Source: Raoultibacter massiliensis (GTDB taxonomy: Bacteria > Actinomycetota > Coriobacteriia > Coriobacteriales > Eggerthellaceae). Taken from it: a DNA stretch of 64,000 bases. The position numbers and the translations under genes are program-made. The notes below the pieces were generated by a model. That model searched no databases. It saw nothing but the letters and a program-made list of their open reading frames with translations, and was not told where the DNA came from. Numbering within the stretch: the stretch's first letter is position 1; each line of letters opens with the position of its first letter. Below, one piece after another: positions 15,958 through 56,230 of this stretch. The stretch spans positions 1,199,144 through 1,263,143 of the forward strand of contig NZ_LT962671.1 of NCBI RefSeq assembly GCF_900199545.1. The letters are read 5' to 3'.

Positions 15958-16306
15958 GGCTCTTGCTTCCTTTCAACTCGTTGATCTTCGCCGAGACGAA
16001 CTCCCACTTGGACCAGAAAGCTTCCAACTGCGTCCGACCCCTCTCGTTAAGGGAGTAGAACTTCCTCGGAGGCCCCATCTCGGATGGTTTCTTCTGTGTG
16101 TCCACCAGGCCGTTTTTCTCGAGGCGTACAAGGATCGTGTAGACCGTTCCCTCAACCACGTCCTCGAATCCGAGGGCGTTCAGCCGCCGGGTGATCTCGT
16201 AGCCGTAGGTTTCCTCGCGGCTGATGATCTCCAGCACGCAACCCTCCAGCACGCCTTTCAGCATTTCGGTTAGGTTCTCCAGCTCGATCAACTCCCATTT
16301 TGTCAT
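15950..16306 (-). CDS. PadR family transcriptional regulator
   Basis: 118 residues. Winged HTH of PadR type: LKGVLEGCVLEIISREETYG, then EITRRLNALGF, then GTVYTILVRLEKNGLV and the wing with GPPRKFYSLNERG. PadR proteins repress, and lose DNA on binding small (often phenolic) molecules. There is no Shine-Dalgarno before the ATG; a short or absent leader is likely. An inverted repeat covers its promoter (16312-16355), suggesting self-repression. Confidence 0.88.
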   Translation of the reverse strand: MTKWELIELENLTEMLKGVLEGCVLEIISREETYGYEITRRLNALGFEDVVEGTVYTILVRLEKNGLVDTQKKPSEMGPPRKFYSLNERGRTQLEAFWSKWEFVSAKINELKGSKSHA

Positions 16307-16801: not shown

Positions 16802-17263
16802 CTACAGGCCGGAAATGTTGTCCTGCACGAGTTCGAAACGCTCGCTTCCCGGGCCCCTGAAAAACGCGATGCGCATGTTCAAGCCCTTCTCGTTGCACAC
16901 GGCGAACACCGTGCCGTCCAAATCGCATGCACGATCGAAGTCGAGCGGAGGATCGAACGGCCCCGCCTCCATTTCGACGCCGTGCTCCTTCAGATGAGCC
17001 ACAGCCGCATCCATATCGGGAACGCGAAATGCCAAGTGGTTGAGCGAAACCGCGGCCGTCTCGAGCGGCGTCTTATCCTCTTGCTCCAGAAGCTCCACCA
17101 CCGTGCCGCCGGGGTGGCGCATCCACGCCATCTTCAGCGGCTTGTCGCCTTCCATGGCAAGCGACTCGAACAACAGCTCGAATCCCAGAACGTCGGCGTA
17201 AAACGCAAGGGACTCTTCTATGTCCCGGCAGTAAATGCCCGAATGCTGGCTGCTCAGCTCCAT
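16802..17263 (-). CDS. VOC (glyoxalase-fold) metalloprotein
   Basis: 153 residues; the ATG at 17263 follows AAGGAGGCTTTC. Two beta-alpha-beta-beta-beta modules are visible (SGIYCRDIEESLAFYADVLG and LNHLAFRVPDMDAAVAHLKE). The four usual VOC metal ligands are present: His in QHSGIY, Glu in VVELLE, His in LNHLAF and Glu in RFELVQ. VOC proteins include glyoxalases, epimerases, extradiol dioxygenases and binding proteins. The gene begins 10 bp after the small subunit of the transhydroxylase-like enzyme, and its Shine-Dalgarno overlaps that gene's end. It is therefore part of the same operon and may handle the same substrate or product. Confidence 0.82.
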   Translation of the reverse strand: MELSSQHSGIYCRDIEESLAFYADVLGFELLFESLAMEGDKPLKMAWMRHPGGTVVELLEQEDKTPLETAAVSLNHLAFRVPDMDAAVAHLKEHGVEMEAGPFDPPLDFDRACDLDGTVFAVCNEKGLNMRIAFFRGPGSERFELVQDNISGL

Positions 17264-17273
17264 GAAAGCCTCC

Positions 17274-18095
17274 TTACGCACGGTACAGGGCGATCGTCCC
17301 GACGTTCAGATCCTTCTCGATCGTCGAGATGAAATCGGAAACGGTGCGTGGCATATACCCTTCGGCCTCGACCGTGATGCTGTAGTCTGACGGCTCGATC
17401 TGACGGAACCAGAAATCCCCGAAGTCGTCGGATTCGGTCTCCCTCGTCTCCCCCGTAGCGAGATCGGTAAGAACGACTTTGGCTCCGATGAGCACTTCCT
17501 CTTCTTCGAGATCGGCGATCTCACCGCCGATGAAGCGCTTCGGAAGATTCAGATAGTACACGCTGGGGCCGGTACCGTATTCGGGATGAAGCTTTTCCGC
17601 GTCACCAAGCTCGCCGGCGAAATCCTCGATATCGCCGAATCGCAGCGCGTCGTGGGCGCAAGCCTCGACACAGCGCGGTACAGACCAGCCGTCGTCGAGC
17701 AAATGAGCGCACCCGGTGCACTTCTGCGGAATGTCGAGCTCCTCGTTCCAAAACACCTTGTGGTACGGACACGCCTCCATGATAGCCTTCTGGCCCTTCG
17801 CCTTCACCGGATCGATGACGATCAGGCCGTCGTCACGCCGATACACGGCACCGTCCTTTGCTGCAGCCATGCATGGCGCACTTTCGCAATGCTGGCACAT
17901 GATAGGCGTATAGGAGACGGTGACTTTCGGAACCTGACCGCGCTCCTTCTCTTCGACGTTGAGCCACTGCTGGCCAACATCGGGCTGGGGAGCCGCGTAG
18001 GGCATCCAATCGTTATCGCAATGCTCGTCTTTGCAAACCAACTGGCAGCTGCGGCAACCAACGCACTTGGCTACATCGATGACAAAGGTCTTCAT
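17274..18095 (-). CDS. Transhydroxylase-like iron-sulfur subunit, copy 1
   Basis: 273 residues. The N-terminal two thirds are a ferredoxin-like electron module with Cys motifs CVGCRSCQLVC, CQHCESAPC, ACPYHKVFW and CTGCAHLLDD. Residues ~190-273 form a separate beta domain (GAKVVLTDLATGETRE to GTIALYRA). The order and wording agree with the small subunit (BthL) of pyrogallol-phloroglucinol transhydroxylase, which holds three [4Fe-4S] clusters and a transthyretin-like beta-barrel. GAVYRRDDGLIVIDPVKAKG and FWNEELDIPQKCTGCAHLL are especially close. There is no signal peptide or membrane anchor, so the enzyme is cytoplasmic. The start follows AAGGAAGGGGAG, 4 bp after the large-subunit stop. Confidence 0.88.
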   Translation of the reverse strand: MKTFVIDVAKCVGCRSCQLVCKDEHCDNDWMPYAAPQPDVGQQWLNVEEKERGQVPKVTVSYTPIMCQHCESAPCMAAAKDGAVYRRDDGLIVIDPVKAKGQKAIMEACPYHKVFWNEELDIPQKCTGCAHLLDDGWSVPRCVEACAHDALRFGDIEDFAGELGDAEKLHPEYGTGPSVYYLNLPKRFIGGEIADLEEEEVLIGAKVVLTDLATGETRETESDDFGDFWFRQIEPSDYSITVEAEGYMPRTVSDFISTIEKDLNVGTIALYRA

Positions 18096-20679: not shown

Positions 20680-20785
20680 TGCTTCTCCTTCCTCAAGGCA
20701 TTTGTTTGCAGGATGCATTTCTCTTGCTTTCCGCGCCCAGTGGAAAGCAAGCTATACCCGTCGAGCATCCTGCCACCGTTCGATC

Positions 20786-21057: not shown

Positions 21058-22728
21058 ATGGAAGCTATAAAGCCAAATGACACCGCAGCAAACAAGACCA
21101 CCTCGTCCCGGAACAGCGCAACGAAGAAACCTGCCTCAGAAGCCCTCCTTTCTACGGCAAGCCACCCGGACTCCGGCTCTCCCGTAGCCGAACCGGGACG
21201 CAAAGGCGACCCGCCCGCGTGGACTCGCTACACCAACATTCCGTTTAGGCTTTTAGGCTACGGCATCTTGATGGGATGGCATTTTCTGCTCATTTACTTT
21301 TCAACCATGCCAGAGGCAGCCGAGCCCGATGCGCACGTACTCCTTTTGCGGCAGCTTACCTTGAACGTCGCTCTGGCGATAACGTTTTTCGGCCTCTCGC
21401 TGATAGGCCGCAAGACAGACGTGCTAAAGCCGCTTCTCTCTCCGCTTGCAATATCGGGGGTTGCGGCAACGGGCGTTATCGCGACGATCGGAATCATATA
21501 CACGCAGTTCTTCGGAGTGTCCGTCGCCACCGCCGTATTCGTTGCCATCGCAGGCGCATCCGAGGCATTGCTGCTGTTCGCATGGCTGCACTTCTACTCG
21601 GAAACGGAAACGAACTACGCGACGAAATACATTTCGGTTTCCCTCGTCATCGGCGCGTTGGCAGCGTTTTTCATACGGCACCTCACCGTCGAAATCGCCT
21701 TTATCTGCTTCGTCACGCTGCCGGCGCTATCAGCCGCCATGCTCGCCATCAGCATTCGCCAAACGCCCGTCCGCAGCGCCGATCGAGGAGGACGCGGCCT
21801 GAGCGACCATAAGGGCGCCATGCGCCCGCTTGCCGCTTGCACGGCGAACCTTGCCGTATTCAGCGCGGCATTCGGCTTTCTGCAGGGAAGCATACTGCCC
21901 AACGGCAATCCTGTTTTGGCCGCCTTCACCCCCAATGCAGCCATCGGCGCCGCCATCGCGGGAACGATCACCATGCTGGCGTACAGCAAGCTGACGGGCA
22001 GGCAAGCGCCCGAATTGCTCCGTCGGATATCGATTGCGGTATTCATCGTCGGCATCATGGGCGCGATGTATCCTTGGCCCGCCGCAAAAGAAATCGCGGG
22101 AATATCCATCATGGCCGGTTTCATGATCGTCGATATAACGAGCCTCGTGTACGTCGTGATGGTCATTCGCGCCTACGACATAGCCTCGGCGTTCGCCATC
22201 GGGTTCAACCGTGCGGTCGAGTACGCGACGTTCGGCGTATCCATCGCAGCCGGGGCACTGCTCGCCAGCGCTGCGGGAACCGATCCTCTGTATCCTCTTT
22301 ACGTGAGCAGCCTGGTAACGATAATCGCGCTGATCTACGCCATGACCTGCATGGAACGAAGCCCGCTCGATTGGATAGCCCTTCTGTTTCCGGAAAAAAC
22401 GCTTGCCGAAGAAGGCGCAGAAGCAACCCCAGCCCAAGAAACGCCCGCTTCGCGCATGCCCCCCGATGCCAAATCGGGGCAGTTGACGCTCGGATATTTC
22501 AGAATGAAATGCCAGGCCGTGTGCGAACAGTCGAATCTGTCACCGCGCGAATCAGAGGTGCTCGTGCTCATGGCGAAGGGACGCAATGCGGAATACATAC
22601 AAAACGCCTTGATGGTATCCAACTATACCGCAAGGACGCATATCGCCAACATCTACCGTAAATGCGGCGTCCATTCGCTGCAGGAGCTCATCGATAAAGT
22701 CGAACAAACAGAAATTGAAAACGCCTGA
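21058..22728 (+). CDS. Membrane-bound LuxR-type regulator
   Basis: 556 residues, start supported by GGAGGACGGACT. A polar N-terminal tail of about 55 residues is followed by about twelve hydrophobic helices (~60-440), a linker rich in Ala, Pro and Glu, and a LuxR HTH (LSPRESEVLVLMAKGR, then NYTARTHIANIYRKCGVHS). It is a one-component sensor in which the membrane part presumably binds the signal. It stands between transhydroxylase copy 1 (divergent) and the MFS/DmsA-like cluster (same strand), so it may control both. Confidence 0.9.
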   Translation: MEAIKPNDTAANKTTSSRNSATKKPASEALLSTASHPDSGSPVAEPGRKGDPPAWTRYTNIPFRLLGYGILMGWHFLLIYFSTMPEAAEPDAHVLLLRQLTLNVALAITFFGLSLIGRKTDVLKPLLSPLAISGVAATGVIATIGIIYTQFFGVSVATAVFVAIAGASEALLLFAWLHFYSETETNYATKYISVSLVIGALAAFFIRHLTVEIAFICFVTLPALSAAMLAISIRQTPVRSADRGGRGLSDHKGAMRPLAACTANLAVFSAAFGFLQGSILPNGNPVLAAFTPNAAIGAAIAGTITMLAYSKLTGRQAPELLRRISIAVFIVGIMGAMYPWPAAKEIAGISIMAGFMIVDITSLVYVVMVIRAYDIASAFAIGFNRAVEYATFGVSIAAGALLASAAGTDPLYPLYVSSLVTIIALIYAMTCMERSPLDWIALLFPEKTLAEEGAEATPAQETPASRMPPDAKSGQLTLGYFRMKCQAVCEQSNLSPRESEVLVLMAKGRNAEYIQNALMVSNYTARTHIANIYRKCGVHSLQELIDKVEQTEIENA

Positions 22729-22906: not shown

Positions 22907-24112
22907 ATGAGCGAGAAAGATCAATCGTTTTCCATGGGTCGTCGGTGGCTGGTTTTCTCTATCGTTTTCATCATCGGGATTTTATCGGCGTACAGTATGT
23001 TCAAAGCACCGCCGCTGTTTTCGATAATCATCCCCGAACTCGGATTTACCGACGAGAACATCGGTTGGGTTATGTCGATGTTCTCGATAATCGGCGTCGT
23101 GCTGGCGTTTCCAGCGGGCGCTATCCTTGCGAAACTGGGTATCAAAAAGAGCCTCATCATCACAGCCGCGAGCCTGGCCATCGGCAGCGCGATCGGAGCC
23201 GTAGCCAGCAACGTGGCGATTCTTTTGGCTTCGCGCTTCATCGAAGGAATCGGGATGGGCTTGATTTCGGTTGTGGGGCCGGCCGCCATCGCAACCATCA
23301 TTCCACGCGCGAAACAGGGCTTGGCAATGGGCATTTGGTCGGTATGGTTCCCCGCCGGTACCGTGCTCGCGTTCAACACCGCCCCCGCATTGGCCGCAGG
23401 CCTTGGGTGGCGATCGGTTTGGTGGGTTTCTGCAGCGCTTTGCCTGGCAACCCTCGTGTTCGCGTTGCTATGCTATTCGCAGCCACCTGCTGAAAAAACC
23501 GAAGACGGGCAAACCGCAACCGGCGTCACGCGCAAGCCCGACATGTTCAGCATCATCATGGTTGCCGTGGCGTTTATGACATGGAACGCATTCAACGCAG
23601 GCGCCATCAGCAGCTTCTACCCGACATTCTTGGCAGACGTCCATTCGATGGATCCGCAGGCCTCGGGCTTCGTCGCAAGCATCACCAACCTGTGCGTGCT
23701 GGCGCTCGGGCCCATATCGGGCATCGTATCGGACAAGATTGGAACACGCAAAGGTCTGCTGGTATTCGCATTCGTAGGCGCGATCATATTCCTGACGTTC
23801 GGCTTCTCCGACAACATCACGCTCATCTACGTATTCGTAATCGGATTCGCGTTCTTCTCGGCATCGTGCGCAACAGGCACATTCTCCATCATCCCCGAGC
23901 TCACGCATCAGCCTGAGAAGATCGGCTTCAGCATGGCGATCGTCGCCTTCCTTCAGAACCTCGGCATCGTCATCGGTTCGGCCGTTTTCCCCGTAGTCGC
24001 CGCCGGCCTTGCTTGGAACTGGAATACCGCATCGCTCGCGTTTTGCGTACCGCTGGCCGTCGTCGGTTTGGTCTGCGTCGTCCTCGTACGCGAAAAGGCG
24101 AATCGCAGCTGA
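22907..24112 (+). CDS. MFS transporter
   Basis: 401 residues, twelve predicted helices, start after GGGAGGTACC. The loop between helices 2 and 3 has the MFS signature as GAILAKLGIKKSLII; the equivalent in the second half is GIVSDKIGTRKGLLV. The first helix carries YSMFKAPPLFSIIIP, a pattern also seen in the transporter at 47331. Position between a LuxR regulator and a molybdoenzyme pair suggests that it imports the substrate or exports the product. Substrate unknown. Confidence 0.88.
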   Translation: MSEKDQSFSMGRRWLVFSIVFIIGILSAYSMFKAPPLFSIIIPELGFTDENIGWVMSMFSIIGVVLAFPAGAILAKLGIKKSLIITAASLAIGSAIGAVASNVAILLASRFIEGIGMGLISVVGPAAIATIIPRAKQGLAMGIWSVWFPAGTVLAFNTAPALAAGLGWRSVWWVSAALCLATLVFALLCYSQPPAEKTEDGQTATGVTRKPDMFSIIMVAVAFMTWNAFNAGAISSFYPTFLADVHSMDPQASGFVASITNLCVLALGPISGIVSDKIGTRKGLLVFAFVGAIIFLTFGFSDNITLIYVFVIGFAFFSASCATGTFSIIPELTHQPEKIGFSMAIVAFLQNLGIVIGSAVFPVVAAGLAWNWNTASLAFCVPLAVVGLVCVVLVREKANRS

Positions 24113-44965: not shown

Positions 44966-45140
44966 GTAGTCTTCCTTTCCGATCAACGTGTTGCCCAGGC
45001 TGGAAAGCCTGTTTTTGGGCGCAAAGATTCAGCGAATTAATATACCATAAAATTCGTCCGAGCAGAAGAGCGATTCTTGTTTGTCAAGAAGCTTGCTTGA
45101 AGGCTTTTGCACCCATCCACGTTCCCGATTTCTTGAATCC
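44966..45140. promoter_or_regulatory. Leader and promoter region of rpoD
   Basis: AT-rich for this genome. On the minus strand it contains TTGACA and, further down, TATATTAA preceded by TATGG, as candidate promoter parts. No gene is present in the whole 44966-45485 gap; the stretch 45293-45485 shows nothing recognisable. Confidence 0.4.
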
Positions 45141-45292
45141 TGTCACAAAATTGGACCTGTGGCAATTATGCAATTTATTACTTTATTGTTTTTGGAATAA
45201 TTATCATGAAAATGCCTGGTGGCGAAAATATCATACAGCTCATTATCGTTAGTCAGTATATTACATTTTGCCACAGGTCCATTTTTGAGTCA
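45141..45292. repeat. MITE-like element with 25-bp terminal inverted repeats
   Basis: The ends 45141-45165 and 45268-45292 are reverse complements over 25 positions with four mismatches. The 14-bp block TGGACCTGTGGCAA at 45152-45165 matches its counterpart exactly. The 102-bp interior is strikingly AT-rich against a GC-rich background. A 5-bp direct repeat GAATC flanks the element (45135-45139, with one extra base, and 45293-45297), like a target-site duplication. No protein is encoded. Confidence 0.6.
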
Positions 45293-45485
45293 GAATCGGC
45301 AGAATTCGGAACACAGCAAGCGCAAACGCGGCCAAGGCCAAAAGACAAGCGGCCGACCGCATGAAGTCTGACAGCCCCGCAAGCGGCGCAGAATAAACAA
45401 AGCGCAATCCTCCCCGCCGCCATTCAGCTGCGGAGAGAATTGGGCCTTCTACGTTCGGTATCGGTGATCGGATGAAGAAGCCGGG

Positions 45486-45839
45486 CTATTTCCCGGGTAC
45501 CGGAGGAACGAATGGCTTCTTTTTCGGTTCGCTCGATTGCACCTTCAAAGTCGGCACGCATGACTGGACTTTGGCTCCAGGGGCATCGCCCATGAAATCC
45601 GCGCTGCTTCCTGCGCTGGGTTCCGATCCAACAGAGCCTGGCGCAGAAGATCCCCTTGCGGCGGCGGGAGCACTCGGAACGACAACGGATCCCGGAACGC
45701 TAGCTGCTCCAGGCGCACCTGGGGCGGCGGGAATCCCGGGTGCTCCCGGCGCACTGGGCGCTCCCGGGGCGGCGGGTGCACCCGGAGCTCCTACCGGCGA
45801 ATTCTCATCCATTTGAGCGGTGGGCGGTCTAAAACACAT
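45486..45839 (-). CDS. Collagen-like Gly-Ala-Pro protein with MCFRPP start
   Basis: 117 residues. The minus strand is chosen because AAAAGGAGTAGACC stands in front of the ATG. The protein starts MCFRPP; as I recall, small gut-anaerobe proteins with an MCFRP start usually carry a zinc ribbon, which is missing here. It is followed by about 35 residues of Gly-Ala-Pro-type triplets (GAPGAPAAPGAPSAPGAPG) and a tail ending KKKPFVPPVPGK. The repeat DNA is so palindromic in coding terms that the plus strand also encodes clean Gly-X-Y triplets. No signal peptide is seen. Function unknown. Confidence 0.65.
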   Translation of the reverse strand: MCFRPPTAQMDENSPVGAPGAPAAPGAPSAPGAPGIPAAPGAPGAASVPGSVVVPSAPAAARGSSAPGSVGSEPSAGSSADFMGDAPGAKVQSCVPTLKVQSSEPKKKPFVPPVPGK

Positions 45840-45976
45840 GGTCTACTCCTTTTTTCCGATAATGTCACTTCATGCGCAGTGACGGCGCATTGTCGATTTC
45901 CAGAACCCGCAATCCAGGCAAAACGAACAGCCCGAATCGGCGGAATCGTAACCACACGAACCGAAACGCATCTTCC

Positions 45977-47176
45977 TCACTCGCCGAGACGGGCACGTTT
46001 TCTCGAAACAACCGACGCAACAAGCACCATTGCGCATATCGCAGTCAACGCTCCCGACGACACGGCAATCAGATCGGCACCGTAGCCAATGCCGAGCAGG
46101 GCAACGCACCACGCGCCGATAACAGGATTGAAGAAATTACCGAACCCCTGCAGCGCCCCGGCGATAGCGATGGCCATCGCCTGCGACGCGGGCTTGCATA
46201 GCTCCGTAATGCGTATGCAGTAGGCAGGCCATACGATGCCGACGCCCACGCCTGCAACCACCATGCCCGCATAGACGCCCGTCAAGGAGTCGCCATTCGA
46301 CACGACGAAGAAACCCAACGCCATGAGGCCCCACGAAAAGGGAATCACGAAGTAGCCGAGCCGATGCTTGAGCCAGCCGTAGAAAAACGCTCCGAACGCG
46401 GCGCCGATCATTTGGATCGACAAGGCGAACCCCGTATCGGCAGCTGTTCCGATACCTGCCCCCTCCACGAACAAAGACAGATTGGAGGTGACGAGAGTGG
46501 CGAGCATATTGCCGACGAAGTATACGGCGATCTCGATCCACGCAAGCCACTTGACACCCGTCATGACTGCCGACATGGTCGGTTTTTCGCCCTTGTCGTC
46601 TTTCACCATGGGGATGCGGGGAAGCAACGCAAGCACCAAAACCAGCGAGATCAGACCAACGCCGTAACCGAGAAAGCTTAGATGCCAGTCCTTGACGGCG
46701 AACTGTCCTCCGACAAAGATCATGATCGTGCAGCCAACCGCGCCTACGGTCATGTTCCATCCCATCATATTTTCCCGCAAGCGGCCTTTGTACAATCGCG
46801 GGATGATCGAGTCGCATGCGGGAAGCGTCAAACCCGCTCCCATTCCGAGAACGATTCGACAGGCGAGAATACCGTAAAACGACGTGAGCAGCATCGGAAG
46901 CATTCCCCCGACGACGAACAGCACAAGGCCCGCGATAACCAACGTGCGCGGATTGATCCTTACCGAAAGCCACCCGTAGAAGATGGCCACCACGCAACAC
47001 GCAATGCTCGGCAGAGTCACCAACAACTGCACCGTCGAAACGGGTATCTCGGGATACGTTGCGCAAATCGAGGCTATCGCTGGAGAAATGCATGCGGAGG
47101 CAGAGTCCTGCAACCCGATAGCCAAAACGGGAATCGCGAGTACGTACGGATTCATTTCTGAGAAGTCTTTTTTCAC
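45977..47176 (-). CDS. MFS transporter
   Basis: 399 residues, twelve helices. The GTG at 47176 has GGGGGAATA upstream and gives MKKDFSEMNPYVLAIPVLAIG. Helix-2/3 loop: YGWLSVRINPRTLVI. The second half contains GAGIGTAADTGFALSIQMIG. It lies 154 bp downstream of another MFS gene on the same strand and may be the last transporter of the transhydroxylase copy 2 region. Substrate unknown. Confidence 0.85.
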   Translation of the reverse strand: MKKDFSEMNPYVLAIPVLAIGLQDSASACISPAIASICATYPEIPVSTVQLLVTLPSIACCVVAIFYGWLSVRINPRTLVIAGLVLFVVGGMLPMLLTSFYGILACRIVLGMGAGLTLPACDSIIPRLYKGRLRENMMGWNMTVGAVGCTIMIFVGGQFAVKDWHLSFLGYGVGLISLVLVLALLPRIPMVKDDKGEKPTMSAVMTGVKWLAWIEIAVYFVGNMLATLVTSNLSLFVEGAGIGTAADTGFALSIQMIGAAFGAFFYGWLKHRLGYFVIPFSWGLMALGFFVVSNGDSLTGVYAGMVVAGVGVGIVWPAYCIRITELCKPASQAMAIAIAGALQGFGNFFNPVIGAWCVALLGIGYGADLIAVSSGALTAICAMVLVASVVSRKRARLGE

Positions 47177-47330
47177 TATTCCCCCAATAGATTTATGCGT
47201 GCGAGCAGAGCGGTGAAACCCGTCGAAGCCAAATCTCGTCGCCCGCATTCGCATCGCCGATCCCAAGTCGGAACCAAGATCGACGATGCGCAATAAAATA
47301 TCCTACTTTAGTAAGTTCCAGCCGACTGCG

Positions 47331-48581
47331 CTAAGCCGCAGGAGAATCGTCCCTGTTCTTCAGAACGTACTTGCGCTGGTACAGAGCCGCGCCGAGCGCA
47401 CATAGAGCCGCCAGCACCGCAAATCCGACGACGAGAAAATCGCAGGCCGTCCATACGCCGCCGGCATCCTCGACGAGCTTTGCCGGAAGGAACGTGGAGA
47501 GGGCGCCGCCCACGTTCGCACCGATCATAACCAAGCCCAAACCCATCGACAGAAACTCAGGGCGCTTCATGGCGTCGGGCGCCATCGCAAACCCGATAGG
47601 CATGTTGAATTGAGTGACGGCCGAAAGGACAACCGCAAACGCCGTCACGATCATAAAGGAAGAAGGTATCCTGAACTGCAGGGCGAACGCAACGGCGCTG
47701 ATAACGGCTACAACGACAAGCAGGATACCCCTGTTGCGAATGGCCGTCTTGTTGATAACCCAGCCCACAAGCAGAGATCCGACCATGCCACCGAACGTCG
47801 AGATGGAGATGATGTTGTTAGCAGTAGCGGGATCGAAACCGAGACCAGTCTGCAGGAAGGTGGGATACAGGCCCGTATAGCAACCGCAACCAACAGCCAG
47901 CAGGCCAAGCGCAAGGGACATGAGGGCGACGGCGGGCTCCTTCAAGCCTTCGAGAACAGACGGCTTCTTGCCGCTGGAAGCAGGCTCAGGCTCGGCCACC
48001 TTGGGTTCTTGCACGAACAGGATGAATAAAACCAACATGACGGCCTGCATGACGGCAGCAGCAATCCACTCTCCCTGCCAGCCGAACGACGGAACGAGCA
48101 TGTTCGCCAATTGAGCAACGAGCAGGTTAGCGAGCGAAACCCAGATAACCCAGATCCCGTTTGGCAAACCGCGCTTGTCGGCAGTGAAGTTCGCTGTGAT
48201 GATGGCAACGCTGACCATGGTCATGCAGCCGTAGGAAATGCCTTCGAGGAAACGCGTGGCGAGAAGGATCTCGAACGTCGGCGCGAAAGCCCCGATCACA
48301 TTTTCCACGATGCCGGCGGCGACAACGATGATGCCGAATTTTTTCGCGCCGATCTTCTGCATGATGGCGCCGGCGGGAATTGCGGTGAAAATGCACGTGA
48401 GGCCGACAACGGACATAAGCAATCCTACTTGGCTCATCTCCACACCGTAGAAATTCATGATGTTGGGCATGTTGACCGGCACCTTGAACATGCCAAAGGC
48501 AATAGTAACGCCCGTCAGAAACACGATAAAGAACTGCAACCAGCTTTTCCCGCTGTTAAGCGTAATGGATTTTGTGCTCAT
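47331..48581 (-). CDS. MFS transporter of the transhydroxylase copy 2 operon
   Basis: 416 residues, twelve helices, start after GAAAGGGGAG. Helix 1 has TIAFGMFKVPVNMPNIM, and the helix-2/3 loop is GAIMQKIGAKKFGII. Both parallel the MFS at 22907 (SMFKAPPLFSIIIP and GAILAKLGIKKSLII), suggesting related substrates. It starts 33 bp after the iron-sulfur subunit gene and is most likely co-transcribed with it. Confidence 0.88.
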   Translation of the reverse strand: MSTKSITLNSGKSWLQFFIVFLTGVTIAFGMFKVPVNMPNIMNFYGVEMSQVGLLMSVVGLTCIFTAIPAGAIMQKIGAKKFGIIVVAAGIVENVIGAFAPTFEILLATRFLEGISYGCMTMVSVAIITANFTADKRGLPNGIWVIWVSLANLLVAQLANMLVPSFGWQGEWIAAAVMQAVMLVLFILFVQEPKVAEPEPASSGKKPSVLEGLKEPAVALMSLALGLLAVGCGCYTGLYPTFLQTGLGFDPATANNIISISTFGGMVGSLLVGWVINKTAIRNRGILLVVVAVISAVAFALQFRIPSSFMIVTAFAVVLSAVTQFNMPIGFAMAPDAMKRPEFLSMGLGLVMIGANVGGALSTFLPAKLVEDAGGVWTACDFLVVGFAVLAALCALGAALYQRKYVLKNRDDSPAA

Positions 48582-48614
48582 TTCTCCCCTTTCGAGAGCA
48601 TAGTCAAATTCCCG

Positions 48615-49421
48615 TTATTCCTTTTCAAGTGGAAAATCCCCAATGTTGAGACTCTCGACGAGTTCGACGGTTCTCCCCTTCACGCCCGCAAAACCAGGCG
48701 CCTCGATGTCGAGCGTATAAACACCTGGCGTCAGATGCTTGAACCAAAAATCGCCGAAGCCGTCTGTCGCGGTCTCACGAACGCCGCCCCGCGCATCGGT
48801 CAGTTTGACGGAAGCGCCCTCGATAACGAGATCGGCTTGCACATCCCACACCTCGCCGGAAACGAACAGGCCGAACGGGTTTACGTAATAAACGCGGGGC
48901 TTAGTGCCTTCGACATCCCACTGGTCCGTGGATTGCGCGATGAGATCTGCGAGCTCCTCTTCTTCGCCGAACAGCAGGGCTCCCGTTGCGCAGGCATCGA
49001 CGCAATGAGGAAGCTTGCCTTCGTCGACCAAGTGCGCGCAACCTGTGCATTTCTGCGGCACGGACAGCTCTTCGTTCCAATAGATGGCACCGTAAGGGCA
49101 TGCGTCGACAAGCTCTTTTTTATCCTGCGCCTTTTCCGGATCGATGATCACCAAACCGTCTTCGCGCTTGTACACCGCCTCGGGAGCCGCTTTCATGCAG
49201 GGAGCATCATCGCAGTGACGGCACAGGGTGGGTCGGTATTCGGCAAGAACCTTCGGCACCTGCCCATGGATCTTCTCGGTCATCTTGAGCCAGAAGTGGC
49301 CCGTATTCGGCTGCGGCTTCGAATAAGGCATCCATTCGTTTTCAACCGTCTCGTCTTTGCAGGCAATCTGACAGCCGTAGCAGCCGTTGCATTTAGCCAA
49401 ATCAACAACAAACGTCTTCAT
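48615..49421 (-). CDS. Transhydroxylase-like iron-sulfur subunit, copy 2
   Basis: 268 residues, organised as copy 1. Cys motifs are CNGCYGCQIAC, CRHCDDAPC, ACPYGAIYW and CTGCAHLVDEG, then a beta domain from ~190 (GASVKLTDARGGVRETATDG). The segments YKREDGLVIIDPEKAQDKKE and YWNEELSVPQKCTGCAHLV agree closely with both copy 1 and the transhydroxylase small subunit. The start follows GAGGAGGCGTAAGC, 2 bp after the large-subunit stop. No anchor or signal. Confidence 0.88.
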   Translation of the reverse strand: MKTFVVDLAKCNGCYGCQIACKDETVENEWMPYSKPQPNTGHFWLKMTEKIHGQVPKVLAEYRPTLCRHCDDAPCMKAAPEAVYKREDGLVIIDPEKAQDKKELVDACPYGAIYWNEELSVPQKCTGCAHLVDEGKLPHCVDACATGALLFGEEEELADLIAQSTDQWDVEGTKPRVYYVNPFGLFVSGEVWDVQADLVIEGASVKLTDARGGVRETATDGFGDFWFKHLTPGVYTLDIEAPGFAGVKGRTVELVESLNIGDFPLEKE

Positions 49422-49423
49422 GC

Positions 49424-51997
49424 TTACGCCTCCTCAATCCAGCTTGCAATCGCTACGCCCTCATCCGGGTCATACGGACGGTTAAACGTTTCCGGATACT
49501 GTCGAGCCAGGTCGAACACGTCAACCTTCTCTATGTCGACGAGAAATCCGCTCGTCACTTCGCCGGGAGCGTTTTGCGACGTGGTTTTGGTCGGTGCGAT
49601 AAGGTTGTTCGCTCCGCCGCGGTCGGAAACCCCCGACTCGATCGGATCGAGGCGAGCCCCGTGATCCTGGTATACAACCGATTCCCGAATGCGCTCGGTA
49701 ACGTAAGCCCCGCCGAGAACCCAGCCGCGATCATTCAAAATTTTGACGATGTCGCCGCTCTTGATACCGCGCTTTTCGGCATCTCGCGGATTGATCCATA
49801 CCGGTTCGTACTTGTAGCCGTCGGGTCCCGTCACCTTGCACGTGGGTATTTCGCGGAACCACGGAATATCGTCCATGTTCGCGTGAATGCGCCAGCGAGG
49901 GTGGTTCGAAACGATCAAAAACGGATACGTATCGGAACGAGAATGCAGTAAACTCTCCTGATGACGCTTGCCGTACGGGATGAAATGGGGTACCGGCGGG
50001 CGCTCGTCGTCATCGGGAAAGTGCTCGGCTAACGCGGTTGCGTAGAACTCGACCTTACCGGTTGGCGTAGAAAGAGGATGCGCCTCGGGGTCTTCGCAGA
50101 ACGGGCCGAAGCCGCGTGGCAGGTCCTCCCAATCGTCGAGCGTCGGCGCAATGAAGTATCCCTTGTCCTTGAACTCTTCGAACGATATGTCGCCTGGCTT
50201 CTCGGCGCCATCGAAGCCGACCCTGATCCAGTCCTCGACGCTTTTTCCTTCTACGAACTCATCGTAGACGCCCAGCTTCTTGGCAACCTCTCCAACGGCC
50301 TCCCAGTCGCTCTTCGATTCGCCAAGCGGTTCGACCGCCCTCTCCTCGTAATAGATGAGACCGAACGGCGCAGCGCCGTTATCCTGTCCGATGTCTTCCT
50401 CTTCGTATTTGGTGTTGATCGGAAGCAGGATATCGGCGAACAGACAGTCGTTCTCCATCCAGATATGCTGAGCGACGACACATTCTATTTTCGGGCTGCG
50501 AATCGCCTCGATCATGGAGTTTCCACCGTTCCAGCACGTGGTCCAACACGGCGTATCCGTCCAGATCATATGGATGCCCTGAGCGCCGGGGATAGGATAC
50601 TGGTATGTGGTGTACTGATCTTCCCGAGGCCATCCGGCAACCGTATAGCCCTGCCACGTCAACGGATTGTCGGGAGTGTAGTCGCCCATGATCGCCTTCG
50701 GAACGAGCGTCTTGGGAATAAACGACTTGGTTTGCACGAAATCCCATCCGCGATAAGCGGCCCCGACGGTCATGTTGCTCGAATAGCAGGGAGCAGGTTG
50801 CTGGGATGGAAGACCGTACATATACCATTCGATGAACTTGACCACGTTGCGGCCCGGCTTTCCAAGACCCTGCATGGTCATGAGGGCAACCTCGAAGCGC
50901 GCCGGTTCATGAGAATAGCAGGAGCGGATGAACGAACCGCCGTTGCCGTGCGCCATGCTTGTGCGCTTCTTGGCCCATTCATGGGCGAGAGCCTTGATCT
51001 GGCGCGACGGCACGCCGCAGATGGGTGCCGCCCACTCCGGCGTTTTAGGCTGCCCGTCTTCGTTGCCGAGGATGTAGTACTCGAACCAATCGTAGCCGAC
51101 GGAATGGGTGTCGACGTAGTCCTTGTCGAACAGCCCTTCGGTCATCCACACGTAGGCGATTGCGGCCATAAGGGCAGCATCGGTGTTGGGCAGCACGGGA
51201 ATCCATTTGTCCGCGTGCACCGCCGCACCGTAATTCAAGTCGGGACACACGTATACCTGCTTGACGCCGATTTCGGTCAGCCAGAAGCAATATTGGCTCG
51301 GAAGCTGGCCTTGCCAACCCCATGTCGTGGTTTCCATATCGCATCCGCAGAAAATGAGCATATCGGTGTTTTCGGCAATGTCGAGCAACAGGTTGCCCAT
51401 ATCGAACTGCCCGAGCGGATCCTGGCCCCACATGTGCTTGGCGCCCCAGTACCAGCCTTCCCAGCTATCGGGCTGGCGGGCCTGATAGGTCCAATCGTCG
51501 CCCAAAACGTTCATGAGACGCGTGGCGCACCCGTGGGATGCGTGAACGACCTTCGTTTCTCCATGACCGTCTCCTTGGATGAAGATCGACGGAAGCCCGT
51601 ACTCGTCGATTATACGGTTGATCTCGCCGGCGATGAGATCGGTGGCCTCGTCCCACGTAATCTGAACGAACTTGCTCTTTCCCCGATTTTCGGTATTGCG
51701 CTCGCCCCGAGGGTCCCAATCCGCACGTTTATACGGATGGAGAATCCTGTTCTTCGAGTACACGCGCTTCTTGTAAGCATATGCGTACGGCGGTAGAAGC
51801 GCTTTCATCGTCGAATGGAACTCGCTGCCCCGCGCCTTGATGGTCCAAGGCTTCAGGTACTCTTCGGAATACTCTTTGTCGTATCGCATGGGACGAACGC
51901 GGATGATCTTGTCGTCTTTGACATCGACTTCAGCAACGTTTGCACCGATGCCGAATGAATTCATACCAGTCGATTTGTAGACCGTTTTCTCTGGCAT
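49424..51997 (-). CDS. Transhydroxylase-like molybdopterin subunit, copy 2
   Basis: 857 residues; ATG after AAAAGGGGGTTTGGCGC. It has the same architecture as copy 1: FVQITWDEATDLIAGEI, GDGHGETKVVHASHG (His145), QARQPDSWEGW (Asp177-Ser178-Trp179), the CWTTCW segment at 484-489 followed by NGGN, and DRGGANN near the end. No N-terminal Cys cluster and no Tat signal. Middle parts differ from copy 1 (for example the region after LGKPGRNVVKFIEW), so the two enzymes probably act on different but related compounds. Controlled most likely by the LysR protein encoded just upstream. Confidence 0.88.
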   Translation of the reverse strand: MPEKTVYKSTGMNSFGIGANVAEVDVKDDKIIRVRPMRYDKEYSEEYLKPWTIKARGSEFHSTMKALLPPYAYAYKKRVYSKNRILHPYKRADWDPRGERNTENRGKSKFVQITWDEATDLIAGEINRIIDEYGLPSIFIQGDGHGETKVVHASHGCATRLMNVLGDDWTYQARQPDSWEGWYWGAKHMWGQDPLGQFDMGNLLLDIAENTDMLIFCGCDMETTTWGWQGQLPSQYCFWLTEIGVKQVYVCPDLNYGAAVHADKWIPVLPNTDAALMAAIAYVWMTEGLFDKDYVDTHSVGYDWFEYYILGNEDGQPKTPEWAAPICGVPSRQIKALAHEWAKKRTSMAHGNGGSFIRSCYSHEPARFEVALMTMQGLGKPGRNVVKFIEWYMYGLPSQQPAPCYSSNMTVGAAYRGWDFVQTKSFIPKTLVPKAIMGDYTPDNPLTWQGYTVAGWPREDQYTTYQYPIPGAQGIHMIWTDTPCWTTCWNGGNSMIEAIRSPKIECVVAQHIWMENDCLFADILLPINTKYEEEDIGQDNGAAPFGLIYYEERAVEPLGESKSDWEAVGEVAKKLGVYDEFVEGKSVEDWIRVGFDGAEKPGDISFEEFKDKGYFIAPTLDDWEDLPRGFGPFCEDPEAHPLSTPTGKVEFYATALAEHFPDDDERPPVPHFIPYGKRHQESLLHSRSDTYPFLIVSNHPRWRIHANMDDIPWFREIPTCKVTGPDGYKYEPVWINPRDAEKRGIKSGDIVKILNDRGWVLGGAYVTERIRESVVYQDHGARLDPIESGVSDRGGANNLIAPTKTTSQNAPGEVTSGFLVDIEKVDVFDLARQYPETFNRPYDPDEGVAIASWIEEA

Positions 51998-52167
51998 GCG
52001 CCAAACCCCCTTTTCTCTACCTACTCAACTGTTCAGCAATCATCGGGGCCGGCCGCCTTCTCCTTACCTCGAGACCCCTCTGCTAACGGATAGGTTCTTC
52101 ATTGAACTCGTCCAAACACAATTGCATGGTAAGAGCGGTGCGCGAACTTGGGTAGACGACTTGTCTT

Positions 52168-52180
52168 CATACGTCGTATG
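52168..52180. promoter_or_regulatory. Palindrome upstream of transhydroxylase copy 2
   Basis: CATACG, one base, CGTATG: a perfect palindrome 171 bp upstream of the large-subunit start. It is a candidate site for the LysR protein. The rest of the 313-bp gap shows only the terminator at 52226-52261. Confidence 0.4.
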
Positions 52181-52225
52181 CCAAAAACGCATAGATAATC
52201 CGGGCTGGTGAAAAGCCATTTGCAG

Positions 52226-52261
52226 ACAAAAACACCACGACCTCGCATTAATGCGAGGTCG
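52226..52261 (-). terminator. Terminator of the LysR gene
   Basis: CGACCTCGCATT followed at once by AATGCGAGGTCG (52238-52261) gives a near-perfect stem, and GTGGTGTTTTTG follows on the minus strand. It separates LysR transcription from the operon it probably controls. Confidence 0.75.
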
Positions 52262-52310
52262 ATTGAATCCCTGCGAGCGCCACAGCGGCGAGCACGTGCG
52301 CCGGTAGACC

Positions 52311-53195
52311 CTAGCGTGCCTCGTCGGACGGCAGAGCGTCAAGGAACAACGAAACGAACTGATTTTTCAGCGTCTTTTTATGGGCGAAGAAAACCGGGAG
52401 GTAGAGAGGCGATTCGAAGTCGACTATCTCTACGGTTCTCGATGCCTCGAAAACATCGCACATGAAATCGGGAATAACGAAAAACCCGTTTAGGGAAACA
52501 ACGAACGAGGCGGCCACTTCGACTTCGTCAACTTCGAATATGCTCTTCGGCTTATAGCCGGCAGTCGCCACAAGCTCGTTGAGCACATCGGTCGTTTCCT
52601 TTATCTTCAAGCATACGAGAACCGCATCTGTCACATCGGCGGGAACGATATATCCCCTCTGTGCCACCGGCCCGCCCTTGGGCACGATTGCATGAAGGAC
52701 GTCCTTGCCGATACAGCGATACGATATCTGCCCCTTGTCGTCAAAGCGAGCCTGTCCAAGAAATCCGATATCGAGGTCTCCGTCGATAATGCCATCGACG
52801 ATGTCAAGGGGGTTTTCGGTAGCATAGGAAATCGCAATGTTCGGATACTGCCGGTTGAATCGCTCGACGACAGGTGCGATATAGCGGTCGAACCCCATCG
52901 AGAGGATCCCCATGCGCAGCTGGCCGCACACCACGTTGTTTTCCGGCTGGAACAAACAGACGATATCATCGTATCGGCTGACTATGTCTTTGAACGTATG
53001 ATATGCCTGTTTTCCGCGGGGCGTGAGGGTAAGCCCTTTGGGCGATCGTAAAAACAACTGCACGTTCAATGTGTCTTCCATAGCGCGAATGTGCTTGCTC
53101 AAGACCGGCTGGGTGATATGAAGCTTGGATGCGGCAACCGACACGCTTCCCTCATCGGCAACGACCAGAAATTCTCTCATGTATTCAACATGCAC
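52311..53195 (-). CDS. LysR family regulator of transhydroxylase copy 2
   Basis: 294 residues. GTG at 53195 with GCGAGGGGGCGCATC in front. HTH: MREFLVVADEGSVSVAASKL, then HITQPVLSKHIRAMED. The effector domain begins CGQLRMGILSMGF. It is encoded on the same strand immediately upstream of the copy 2 operon, with its own terminator, so it has separate transcription. An aromatic or related inducer is plausible but unproven. Confidence 0.88.
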   Translation of the reverse strand: MHVEYMREFLVVADEGSVSVAASKLHITQPVLSKHIRAMEDTLNVQLFLRSPKGLTLTPRGKQAYHTFKDIVSRYDDIVCLFQPENNVVCGQLRMGILSMGFDRYIAPVVERFNRQYPNIAISYATENPLDIVDGIIDGDLDIGFLGQARFDDKGQISYRCIGKDVLHAIVPKGGPVAQRGYIVPADVTDAVLVCLKIKETTDVLNELVATAGYKPKSIFEVDEVEVAASFVVSLNGFFVIPDFMCDVFEASRTVEIVDFESPLYLPVFFAHKKTLKNQFVSLFLDALPSDEAR

Positions 53196-53347
53196 GATGC
53201 GCCCCCTCGCATATCCGACACGACATGTCTCGACTGCGTTGCATTCGGCGTGCACCGCGCACACCCGTCCAGCATCGCAGACGCCATCATTATAGTACGA
53301 TCGCAAGTGGCAAATCACGCAGATCCGCCCTCTCGCAAAGCCGCCGC

Positions 53348-56230
53348 TTACTCGTCTTCGCCGCGCACCTTGAACTCACGCAGGATGTCGTAGAGCTGCT
53401 CGGCATCGAAAGGCTTGGGAACGAAGCCGTCCATGCCGGCCTCCTTTGTGCTGTCACGATCCTCTTGGAAGGTATTGGCGGTGATCGCGATGATGGGGAC
53501 CGTCTTCGCATCGGGACGATCGAGCTCGCGTATCGCCCGCGCGGCCGCAAGACCGTCCATCACGGGCATCTTCACATCCATGAGCACGAAGTCGAACCCG
53601 CCGGGCTCGCTTGCCGAAAACAGGTCGACGGCCTGCTTGCCATCGGCCGCCCGACTGACGACGACTCCCTCCATCTCAAGCAGCGCGATCGCTATTTCCG
53701 CATTGAGGTCGTTGTCTTCGGCCAGCAGCAGCGTCGACGCCGCAAGCGACACATCGGCATGGCCTCCGTCCTCCTGGACGCACGTGGCGCACTCCTGCGA
53801 GATAGGCAGATCGATGGAGAAGTAGAATTCCGATCCTTTGCCCACTTCGCTGCTCACCTTCAGCGCACCGCCCATCATGCGAACGAGGTTGCTGCTGATC
53901 GCAAGACCCAATCCCGTCCCCTGCACATTGGTGCGGTTCTCGGCCGCCTGCTCGAACGACTCGAACACGCGCTCGATATCGTCGGGCGCAATGCCGATCC
54001 CCGTATCGCGCACGCCGAAGCGGATGCGGGCCGCTTCTCTGTCGCGCGCGACCTCCTTGATCGTCAACGTCACGGTGCCGCCCGGATCGGTGAACTTGAA
54101 CGCGTTGGATAGAAGGTTCGCAAGCACTTGTTGCAGGCGGATGTGATCGCCCACCACGCACCCGTCCTCCACATTGCACTCCGTCACCATGACAAGGCCT
54201 TTTTCCTCGGCCTGAATGCCCACCATGCTCTGCATCTGATCAGCGAGCGCCCGAACCGCGAAAGGAGAGCACTCGAGCTGCATCTTGTTGTTGTCGATCT
54301 TGGACATATCGAGGATGTCGTTTACGAGGGCAAGCAGAAACTGAGCCGACGTGTTGATCTTCTCAAGGCTCGTCCTGATTGCCGGGGTGGCCTCGCCCGA
54401 CTGCGAGGCGATGGTCGAAAGCCCGATGATCGCATTCATGGGCGTCCGTATCTCATGCGACATGCGCGAGAGGAAATCCGATTTCGCCCGACCCGTCTCC
54501 ACAGCCTTTTCGAGCTTGAGGGCAAGGATGCGGTTCCTGATCTTCGAGCGCGCGATGAGCAGGATGATGCCCACGATGAGCAAGAGGAAGATAAGGCCCA
54601 CCGCCAGGGTGGCAACGGGGTTGTCGTAGAGCAGCGACTGGATGGATATCTGGCGATTGGTGAGCGAGATGACGTTCTTGGAAAGCACCGTTTCCATCTC
54701 CTCGGCGCTAAACCCGTTGACCGCCTTGCTGACCACGGAATACAGTTCCGAATCGACCGGCTGAGGGAACGCGATAGAGTAGCTCGCATCGGTGTGATCG
54801 ACTGCAACCGGAGTGATGTTGGCGTAGTAGTGGTTGATGTAGAGGCCCTCGGCATACGATGCAGGCAAGCAGGTCAGATCGACGTTGCCCTTATTGAGCG
54901 CGTCGAGGCACAGTTCGTAGGACGGATAGTATTCGACGCGCGAGGCCTTGAGGCCCACAGGCACATCCCTTCCCTGCGGCAACGCGAGAACAAGGCCGTC
55001 CGAGGGGTATTCGGAGGATTTGTTGCGCAGCACGACGGCATCGAGCGTGGTGTAGCTCTTGGTGAGGGAAAGCCCCATATCGTTGGCGTAATACTCGTCG
55101 TCCATGAAGCCGCCCACCACATCGGCTTCTCCGGAAAGCACCAAATCGAGTGCCGCCTGGTAGTTTTCGGCGGGAACGTATTCAAAGGTAAGCCCCGTGC
55201 GCTCCGCGATCAGGTCGAACACGCCCTTGACGATGCCGCGATACGACCCCCCGCTTTCGTAATAGACCGGATAGAGGTCTTTCACCACGGCGACCCGAAC
55301 GGGGTCCGCCCGGTCCACGAACGCCCGATCCTTGTCGGTGAGGCCGATCGTGTTTATATGCACATCGGCGAAATATTTCTCGTAGAGCTCGTCAGCGAAC
55401 GTCGGATCGGCCGTATAGATGCTGATCATAGCCTGATTGAGTTCCGAAGCGATCTCGGGTTCGTCGGCCGCCGCAGTGATGTAATACGGTTCCGATTTGA
55501 AACGCGCCGCCACATCGCAATCGTCGCGCATGTCGATATCGCTGCTCAGGAGTATATCGACCTCCCCATTGTCAAGGCAGGCCAAATACGACTGCACGTC
55601 ATCGTAGTAGCGTATCGCGCAATCGAGCTTGTTGAAATCGAGGAAATTGGAAAGACGGGCGATCTTGTCGGTTGCATTCGCGTTGACCCCGATCGTTTTG
55701 CCGTTCAACGTAGTCAAATCGAAGCTCTTGATATCGGGGTCGGTCTTTTTGTAAAGCAGCACCGAATAGTTCGAACCCATGATGTAATCGGGATAGATGA
55801 CGGCTTCCTTGTATTCTTCACGGTAGAACATCCCGCCGACAAGATCGTATTCCCCCGCGAGCACGCCGGGAAGAAGATCGTCGACATCGCCCGATACGAA
55901 CTCGTAGCTCCATCCGGTGTACTTCGAAATCTCGACGAGCCAATCGTAGAAAATGCCCGCATGAATGCCGTTCCGATCGGTTTCGCTGACGCCCTTCGCC
56001 TGAGGAAAGGCGACCTTGAGCACCCGGCCCGAATCGGCGTGCATGTCAACATCGGGGAGATCGGCAGAAGCGCGTGAGGTATCGGCACCAGAAGAAGCAT
56101 CCGAGCTCGAAGAGCCCATGCTGTACGCCCCTGCCCCGGACGCCGGCTCGCCATCCGCAGCATGCACCGCAGGGGGAAACGCCGAAACAGCCAGGATCGT
56201 CGCCAAGACGACGGCTGCAAGCCTTCTCAT
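53348..56230 (-). CDS. BvgS-like hybrid sensor kinase
   Basis: 960 residues. Signal peptide MRRLAAVVLATILAVSAFPP, then two periplasmic-binding-protein type 3 domains (~68-300 and ~305-545), one transmembrane helix (~560-580), HisKA (SHEIRTPMNAIIGL, His592), HATPase (GTGLGLAISSNLVRMMGG) and a C-terminal receiver with VLMDVKMPVMDG (Asp885). There is no Hpt domain and no output regulator nearby, so its phosphate must go to another protein. The tandem binding domains suggest direct sensing of amino acids or similar small molecules. The start is the best ATG although GAGGAAGG is 18 bp away. Confidence 0.9.
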   Translation of the reverse strand: MRRLAAVVLATILAVSAFPPAVHAADGEPASGAGAYSMGSSSSDASSGADTSRASADLPDVDMHADSGRVLKVAFPQAKGVSETDRNGIHAGIFYDWLVEISKYTGWSYEFVSGDVDDLLPGVLAGEYDLVGGMFYREEYKEAVIYPDYIMGSNYSVLLYKKTDPDIKSFDLTTLNGKTIGVNANATDKIARLSNFLDFNKLDCAIRYYDDVQSYLACLDNGEVDILLSSDIDMRDDCDVAARFKSEPYYITAAADEPEIASELNQAMISIYTADPTFADELYEKYFADVHINTIGLTDKDRAFVDRADPVRVAVVKDLYPVYYESGGSYRGIVKGVFDLIAERTGLTFEYVPAENYQAALDLVLSGEADVVGGFMDDEYYANDMGLSLTKSYTTLDAVVLRNKSSEYPSDGLVLALPQGRDVPVGLKASRVEYYPSYELCLDALNKGNVDLTCLPASYAEGLYINHYYANITPVAVDHTDASYSIAFPQPVDSELYSVVSKAVNGFSAEEMETVLSKNVISLTNRQISIQSLLYDNPVATLAVGLIFLLLIVGIILLIARSKIRNRILALKLEKAVETGRAKSDFLSRMSHEIRTPMNAIIGLSTIASQSGEATPAIRTSLEKINTSAQFLLALVNDILDMSKIDNNKMQLECSPFAVRALADQMQSMVGIQAEEKGLVMVTECNVEDGCVVGDHIRLQQVLANLLSNAFKFTDPGGTVTLTIKEVARDREAARIRFGVRDTGIGIAPDDIERVFESFEQAAENRTNVQGTGLGLAISSNLVRMMGGALKVSSEVGKGSEFYFSIDLPISQECATCVQEDGGHADVSLAASTLLLAEDNDLNAEIAIALLEMEGVVVSRAADGKQAVDLFSASEPGGFDFVLMDVKMPVMDGLAAARAIRELDRPDAKTVPIIAITANTFQEDRDSTKEAGMDGFVPKPFDAEQLYDILREFKVRGEDE

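Follow-up and report, generated by a model that had tools for sequence, protein, structure and literature searches.

A probable LysR-controlled AthLS-type enzyme-transporter cassette in Raoultibacter massiliensis and its place in a large family of AthL-like enzymes

Why does Raoultibacter massiliensis carry two sets of genes for a transhydroxylase-like molybdenum enzyme close to each other, and what might the second set do? The window analyzed here is a stretch of 64,000 nucleotides of contig NZ_LT962671.1 (positions 1,199,144 to 1,263,143; assembly GCF_900199545.1), in which the alpha subunit genes of the two loci, referred to as copy 1 and copy 2, are located 28.7 kb apart. A first-pass annotation of this DNA regarded them as a notable pair of paralogs. 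The comparisons described below leave little doubt that copy 2 is a LysR-controlled enzyme-transporter cassette of the AthLS type, that is, related to the two-subunit enzyme AthLS of Pelobacter acidigallici. The best guess for the enzyme is that it works in the cytoplasm and reductively dehydroxylates phenols of the pyrogallol or catechol type; for the reductive dehydroxylation of a pyrogallol-type ring, we estimate a probability of roughly 0.45, judged from sequence comparisons.

Copy 2 comprises five genes on the minus strand, which encode, in this order, a LysR-type regulator, an alpha subunit, an iron-sulfur (Fe-S) beta subunit and two transporters of the major facilitator superfamily (MFS), MFS a and MFS b, with intergenic spacings of 313, 2, 33 and 154 nt. 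The regulator (52311..53195) has 294 amino acids when read from a GTG, a longer open reading frame (ORF) of 335 amino acids being open, and contains PF00126 and PF03466; a domain search returned an N-terminal HTH_1 domain (68.4 bits) and the LysR substrate domain (88.3 bits), which identifies it as LysR-type. The AthL-like alpha subunit (49424..51997, 857 amino acids) is of the bis(molybdopterin guanine dinucleotide) (bis-MGD) molybdenum type and carries PF00384, PF01568 and PF21423, and the AthS-like beta subunit (48615..49421, 268 amino acids) contains 12 cysteines and a C-terminal CarboxypepD_reg-like domain (PF13620). MFS a (47331..48581, 416 amino acids) and MFS b (45977..47176, 399 amino acids; its ORF opens at TTG 47293) match PF07690 with 149 and 122 bits, respectively. 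No significant similarity was detected between the two transporters, and for MFS a all NCBIfam models stayed below their cutoffs. The first-pass annotation had described two subunits in the same order as in copy 1, a LysR regulator and one or two MFS transporters. Subunits, order and regulator were confirmed, with 56% identity between the two alphas (486/861 columns) and 49% between the two betas (133/272 columns), both far above chance; the MFS linkage also stands, but the number of transporters is exactly two. In Raoultibacter timonensis (locus L001), the gene order of copy 2 is repeated with identities of 96, 83, 93, 86 and 77% for alpha, beta, MFS a, MFS b and LysR, the latter in the same orientation. 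At two further orthologous loci, L002 and L024, the counterparts of MFS a are 73% and 57% identical; MFS b shows 72% identity to its L002 counterpart and 26-27% to the L024 MFS, and the LysR genes are divergently oriented there and share 44% and 37-38% identity with that of copy 2.

The enzyme resembles AthLS at several levels. The best PDB sequence match of the copy 2 alpha is Pelobacter AthL (4v4c_A, 424 bits), as it is for the copy 1 alpha (427 bits), and Foldseek places AthL on rank 1 for copy 2 with a TM-score of 0.85. The copy 2 beta has its best PDB match in 4v4c_B (192 bits, residues 4-244), which extends into the C-terminal domain. Both alphas belong to the AthL-like group, with PF21423 at 42.1 and 31.8 bits (cutoff 27) alongside PF00384 and PF01568, and both betas are of the AthS type, possessing cysteines for three [4Fe-4S] sites (12 in copy 2, 13 in copy 1) and the C-terminal beta domain. 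Copy 2 shares with AthLS the two subunits, the alpha length, the Ser-ligated bis-MGD core with His and Asp at the molybdenum and a beta with 12 cysteines and a C-terminal beta domain, at about 37-38% aligned identity. An S- or N-oxide reductase acting on a non-aromatic substrate is a very improbable alternative: TorA leads the VIA-align comparison by Z score (9h4t on rank 1, AthL on rank 2), and TIGR00509, the bisC family, is the top NCBIfam match with 347 bits; however, AthL reaches 424 bits compared with at most 242 for trimethylamine N-oxide and dimethyl sulfoxide (DMSO) reductases and leads in Foldseek. The S- or N-oxide reductase label was dropped, as 347 bits lie far below the TIGR00509 cutoff of 1018.

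The idea of a special pair of paralogs does not hold, since 14 AthL-like places were found in R. timonensis at E<=1e-100. Two of these places (locus L082, G001:C1:1715979-1717010 and 1727137-1728711) look like one split gene: they are separated by 10 kb on one strand, and one corresponds to the N-terminal and the other to the C-terminal half of an AthL-like alpha. The copy 2 enzyme is predicted to be one of about a dozen AthL-like enzymes in this close relative. Among 138 surveyed genomes of the bacterial family, with at most six candidates scored per genome, 47 contain a match at E<=1e-150, and a match more than 80% identical to copy 2 is present in three (96, 83 and 82%); a protein search returned further relatives at 77-87% identity, one of them named Gordonibacter. 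In a tree of 112 proteins, obtained by a quick search with SH-aLRT values as the measure of support, copy 1 falls within a clade of 49 rows from Coriobacteriia (support 99), and copy 2 forms a five-row clade with L001, P0006, L002 and L024 (support 100), which is next joined by an R. timonensis paralog (99) and then, weakly, by Bacillota sequences; the program's warning of long branches concerned other parts of the tree. By this placement, the two copies are not sister lineages. A comparison of synteny in relatives, as had been proposed, did not find the closeness of the copies preserved: the R. timonensis orthologs are located at C1:1245579 and C1:2705965, 1.46 Mb apart, and the Raoultibacter-like genome G088 has a copy 1 ortholog (98% identical) 35 kb from rpoD and an empty copy 2 site. 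A recent tandem duplication is ruled out by the non-sister placement together with the separation in R. timonensis.

Does the likeness to AthLS extend to the reaction? In AthL, we take Ser175 to be the molybdenum ligand and His144, Asp174 and Trp176 to act with it in the active site, and Tyr152, Trp354, Tyr404 and Tyr560 presumably line the substrate pocket; the residue letters agree with the aligned AthL sequence. The four core columns are kept in both copies and nearly throughout the AthL-like rows (His in 90/90, Asp in 87/90, the ligand Ser in 89/90 and Trp in 83/90). In contrast, neither copy has Tyr152, Trp354 or Tyr560 in either of two alignments, and the second alignment retains Tyr152 in 3/90, Tyr404 in 3/90, Tyr560 in 2/90 and Trp354 in 0/90 AthL-like rows. 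The Tyr404 column depends on the alignment: it holds Tyr in 59/90 rows, including both copies, in the --auto alignment, a gap in the second alignment, and Leu for copy 2 in the PDB match. In the tree, AthL groups with L031_3670 (support 100), and L083 and L084 attach to them with support 86, in a region for which the program gave a warning of converging long branches; this group lies outside the 87-row clade (support 99) that holds copies 1 and 2. L031_3670 has kept Tyr152, Tyr404 and Tyr560 and adjoins two cyclases of the PF04199 family; an SDR is encoded close by. PF04199-type 'cyclases' are the family of the ring-opening enzyme in the characterized phloroglucinol pathway (PMC10470551). This domain was detected in 0/7 Eggerthellaceae genomes bearing AthL-like genes, some of them drafts, compared with 8/14 control genomes, and the AthL-like lineage is therefore unlikely to feed phloroglucinol catabolism. 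The label 'transhydroxylase-like' is correct for the architecture, but the reaction is doubtful. A true pyrogallol-phloroglucinol transhydroxylase, which would transfer a hydroxyl group with a tetrahydroxybenzene cosubstrate and no net electrons, agrees with the best solved sequence and Foldseek matches, the two-subunit architecture, the conserved Ser, His and Asp around molybdenum and the Tyr404 column of one alignment; the lost pocket residues, the separate branch of AthL with its PF04199-linked partner and the missing cyclase make this reaction improbable for copy 2.

A second comparison is offered by the catechol dehydroxylases of gut bacteria, whose closest characterized homolog is acetylene hydratase (PMC7028382). 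Acetylene hydratase scores 57 bits against copy 2 and 68 bits against copy 1, compared with 424 and 427 bits for AthL, which rules out membership of either copy in the known catechol-dehydroxylase clade. The Gordonibacter-type enzymes Dodh, Gp Hcdh and Gs Vadh nevertheless resemble copy 2 in being two-subunit molybdenum enzymes with MFS neighbors and no twin-arginine translocation (TAT) signal (PMC11887054, PMC7028382), and Gs Vadh further combines two subunits with two transporters and a LysR regulator (PMC11887054). Gp Hcdh has 770 amino acids (PMC11585353), whereas the copy 2 alpha has 857; all three enzymes are compared with copy 2 by description. It is conceivable, if unlikely, that the para-dehydroxylation of ordinary catechols, which is the reaction of the known gut enzymes, was reached independently in the AthL-like lineage. 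In several Gordonibacter and Raoultibacter loci (among them L007, L074, L076, L085, L094, L095, L100 and L101), AthL-like genes adjoin catechol-dehydroxylase-like MopB genes, and these neighbors form one tree clade; one MopB of this type scores 282 bits to acetylene hydratase and 38 to AthL, and the others fall in the same clade. However, the aligned proteins of this clade share no more than about 23-27% identity with copy 2, and such neighbors come with an Fe-S protein of about 110 amino acids instead of the 268-residue beta of copy 2. In addition, LysR with two transporters occurs in 0/6 AthL-like loci of the 28C genome (L011 and L085-L089; the ORF scan can miss genes), and Gs Vadh therefore probably lies outside the AthL-like lineage. 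In the tree of the study of Gs Vadh, AthL serves as an outgroup (PMC11887054). A guess that Gs Vadh (C1878_02750) is encoded where contig C1 of Gordonibacter genome G005 ends was rejected, the locus there, L090, being DMSO-reductase-like, and a search for the ellagic-acid cluster via its decarboxylase family yielded one MopB of the expected type each in L153 and L157, and not both Eadh genes.

The direction of electron flow is a further point on which the readings differ. The copy 2 beta has exactly 12 cysteines, and electrons can therefore pass in or out. An oxidative hydroxylase like the resorcinol hydroxylase RhLS or 3,5-dihydroxybenzoate hydroxylase, which would add a water-derived hydroxyl group and release electrons via the Fe-S subunit, is about as improbable as a true transhydroxylase. 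RhL belongs to the Ser-ligated MopB group with PgtL/AthL (PMC10100899; compared by description only), and the Thauera 3,5-dihydroxybenzoate pathway is reportedly controlled by the LysR regulator DbdR. On the other hand, ring-degradation genes are absent from the cassette, and the known RhLS-type and 3,5-dihydroxybenzoate hydroxylases come from nitrate-respiring degraders. The Eggerthellaceae studied so far take catechols as electron acceptors (PMC11574389), and related gut bacteria respire by aromatic dehydroxylation (PMC11887054, PMC11574389). An RR pair is absent from the first 40 residues of the copy 2 alpha, which has no TAT motif. The electron-capable beta, the missing TAT motif, the MFS partners and the phenol-respiring relatives make reductive hydroxyl removal the best guess. 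According to this reductive model, LysR would bind a conserved dyad block in front of the alpha gene, sense the substrate or product and then activate the alpha-beta-MFS-MFS unit. One MFS transporter would import the phenol, and the other would either import it as well or export the product. Electrons would reach the bis-MGD molybdenum of alpha through the beta subunit's [4Fe-4S] clusters. Ser178 would be the ligand of this metal, with His145 and Asp177 close by, and a single hydroxyl group would be lost reductively from the ring. AthL takes the 2-OH off 1,2,3,5-tetrahydroxybenzene in one of its half-reactions, and the copy 2 reaction could be an electron-fed version of it. The likeliest substrates would be pyrogallol-type (3,4,5-trihydroxyphenyl) or catechol-type acids of dietary origin.

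The presence of different regulators at the two loci had led to the proposal that the enzymes serve related substrates met under different conditions. Copy 1 encodes an alpha of 872 amino acids (18100..20718, minus strand), 98% identical to the R. timonensis and G088 orthologs, a beta of 273 amino acids (17274..18095, minus strand) and, 3' of it, a VOC/glyoxalase-fold protein (16802..17281, minus strand; PF13669/PF00903), whose gene likewise adjoins the copy 1 orthologs L077 and L104. A divergent LuxR-type regulator (21058..22728, plus strand; PF00196) with about 10 hydrophobic segments by hydropathy count, here called TM-LuxR, is adjoined by an MFS gene (22997..24112, plus strand; PF07690, 161 bits). 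The VOC protein and the membrane LuxR were correctly named as hallmarks of copy 1, but transporters fail to distinguish the two loci, because copy 1 has an MFS gene, too. Copy 1, with its divergent membrane LuxR next to the enzyme genes, is like the TM-LuxR-controlled enzyme loci of Eggerthella (DadR, HcdR and CadR); copy 2, with its LysR, is unlike them. Neighborhoods were compared for the 56 of 81 AthL-like loci with full flanks, the two of the window included and 25 left out, and were read from ORF scans, which may miss genes in GC-rich DNA. A TM-LuxR was found at 23 and a LysR at 15 of them, both at 2 of these and neither at 20; an MFS or other multi-transmembrane gene lies within 5.5 kb in 47/56 and a second MopB-type gene nearby in 15/56, a few of the latter being AthL-like themselves. 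Mapped onto the tree, the regulator class requires 7 changes compared with a mean of 12.7 in shuffles, 0/300 of which reached 7 or fewer. This mapping covered 40 rows, 24 with LuxR and 16 with LysR, including L002, which carries both regulators and was scored as LysR; it left out L092, where both regulators occur and an assignment was not possible, L019, L032 and L106, which have a LysR downstream alone, and all rows lacking either regulator class altogether. The regulator class thus tends to stay with its enzyme lineage, with occasional exchanges, and two paralogs will therefore often have different regulators. Related substrates met under different conditions do not follow, because the two loci belong to non-sister lineages of a large family in which the regulator tracks the lineage. 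In the dadh cluster, dadS encodes a LysR, but a heterologous host could metabolize dopamine without this gene (PMC11887054), and PMC9734109 reports no LysR homologs for other LuxR-containing clusters of E. lenta. Two further AthL-like loci were noted: in the Peptococcaceae metagenome-assembled genome (MAG) locus L004, an AthL-like pair adjoins a MopB gene of catechol-dehydroxylase size with its small Fe-S protein, as well as MFS and SDR genes, and in Gordonibacter (L088, G005:C5), an AthL-like gene and a gene for an amidohydrolase-type decarboxylase (C5:72522-73556) point away from each other, close to a TM-LuxR gene.

Copy 2 lies in an 8.3-kb block (45091..53386) between rpoD and a gene for a hybrid histidine kinase (53348-56023, minus strand), which has SBP_bac_3 as its sensor domain and is conserved on the far side. 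The alignment of the window with G088 runs to 45090 and resumes from 53387, with nothing aligned in between. Between rpoD and the kinase gene lie 1.44 kb (G088), 2.7 kb (Gordonibacter G005) or, where the cluster is present, 9.3 kb (R. timonensis). In tblastn searches, both rpoD and the kinase were detected in the G088 (L141, 16 kb) and G005 (L143) stretches, which lack homologs of LysR, beta and the MFS proteins; conversely, L002 and L024/L144 contain the complete gene set, with betas 75% and 73% identical, but rpoD and the kinase were not found in these stretches, and the set therefore sits at another place there. The G+C content of the block is 55.8%, compared with 59.7% and 61.3% for the flanks, and copy 1 is also low (57.6%). 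Copy 2 looks like a movable presence/absence cassette, and the data fit gain or loss alike. Between rpoD and the cassette, a stretch of about 160 bp (45137-45296) whose terminal inverted repeats of 29 nt are imperfect, with 86% complementarity, resembles a miniature inverted-repeat transposable element, and its 14-nt core was found in 0/146 loci compared. A small ORF for a collagen-like, Gly-rich protein with repeats is located at 45472-45816 (plus strand; PF01391 at 23.9 bits, under the cutoff of 27.2). A repeat listing of the copy 2 locus gave numerous short, chance-like matches.

The spacer between lysR and the alpha gene contains a 34-bp block (52149..52182, minus strand), which contains the perfect dyad CATACGACGTATG followed by the imperfect dyad GACAAGTCGTC and leaves 151 nt to the start of alpha. 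It is identical to R. timonensis in 32/34 positions within an otherwise diverged spacer, whereas the best of 500 shuffles reached 24 and their mean was 20.1, and the exact CATACGACGTATG dyad occurs at one place in the window. LysR operators usually show a T-N11-A spacing, which the dyad of the block does not follow exactly, and the block was not seen in L002 or L024. It is the probable, putative LysR operator. On the 3' side of lysR, a perfect palindrome of 24 nt and the T-rich sequence after it form a terminator-like hairpin (52238..52261, minus strand); a scan for the terminator consensus found 1 site compared with 1.3 expected in shuffles, which is weak evidence alone. The claim that the two loci are regulated separately finds support in the anatomy, with the conserved dyad block before alpha in copy 2 and the divergent TM-LuxR at copy 1, but the terminator-like palindrome is weak.

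Several other genes of the window deserve mention. The VOC gene of copy 1 adjoins a pair of genes for a PadR regulator and a DUF1048 protein (15610-16306, minus strand), and on the other side the copy 1 locus is adjoined by a DmsA/DmsB-like pair (24582-27826, plus strand), which is also found next to copy 1 in R. timonensis (833 and 247 amino acids, L077) and lies within the stretch aligned with G088. The stretch 38907-41259 (minus strand) encodes an AMMECR1+LigB protein (39769-41259) and contains a neighboring ORF resembling a radical-SAM protein by eye; ORFs resembling this pair follow the AthL-like L031_9935 in a Bacillota MAG, possibly by coincidence.

In the open-access literature, no functional studies of AthL-like enzymes in Eggerthellaceae were found, most subscription journals being outside the search, and the size of this apparently uncharacterized family in gut Eggerthellaceae is a more interesting fact than the pairing of two copies in one window. 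It is tempting to speculate, although this wider view is tentative and clearly less probable than the reductive reaction proposed for copy 2, that gut Eggerthellaceae possess a second class of reductive polyphenol dehydroxylases derived from the AthLS stem, with a dozen members per genome in some species, which may have spread as regulator-enzyme-transporter cassettes and may supply orphan activities such as the 4'-dehydroxylation of 3,4,5-trihydroxyphenyl (gallocatechin-type) metabolites. The enzyme acting on a trihydroxyphenyl-hydroxyvalerate, for instance, has been called unclear (PMC11887054). If the proposed reaction is true, the removal of pyrogallol-type hydroxyl groups would explain reactions of gut bacteria for which no enzyme has been named. 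The LysR and TM-LuxR partners offer a direct route to the substrates via reporter induction. Taken together, AthL-like enzymes would, if this view is correct, constitute a second enzyme lineage in polyphenol respiration, in which a transhydroxylase scaffold has been turned into a reductase.

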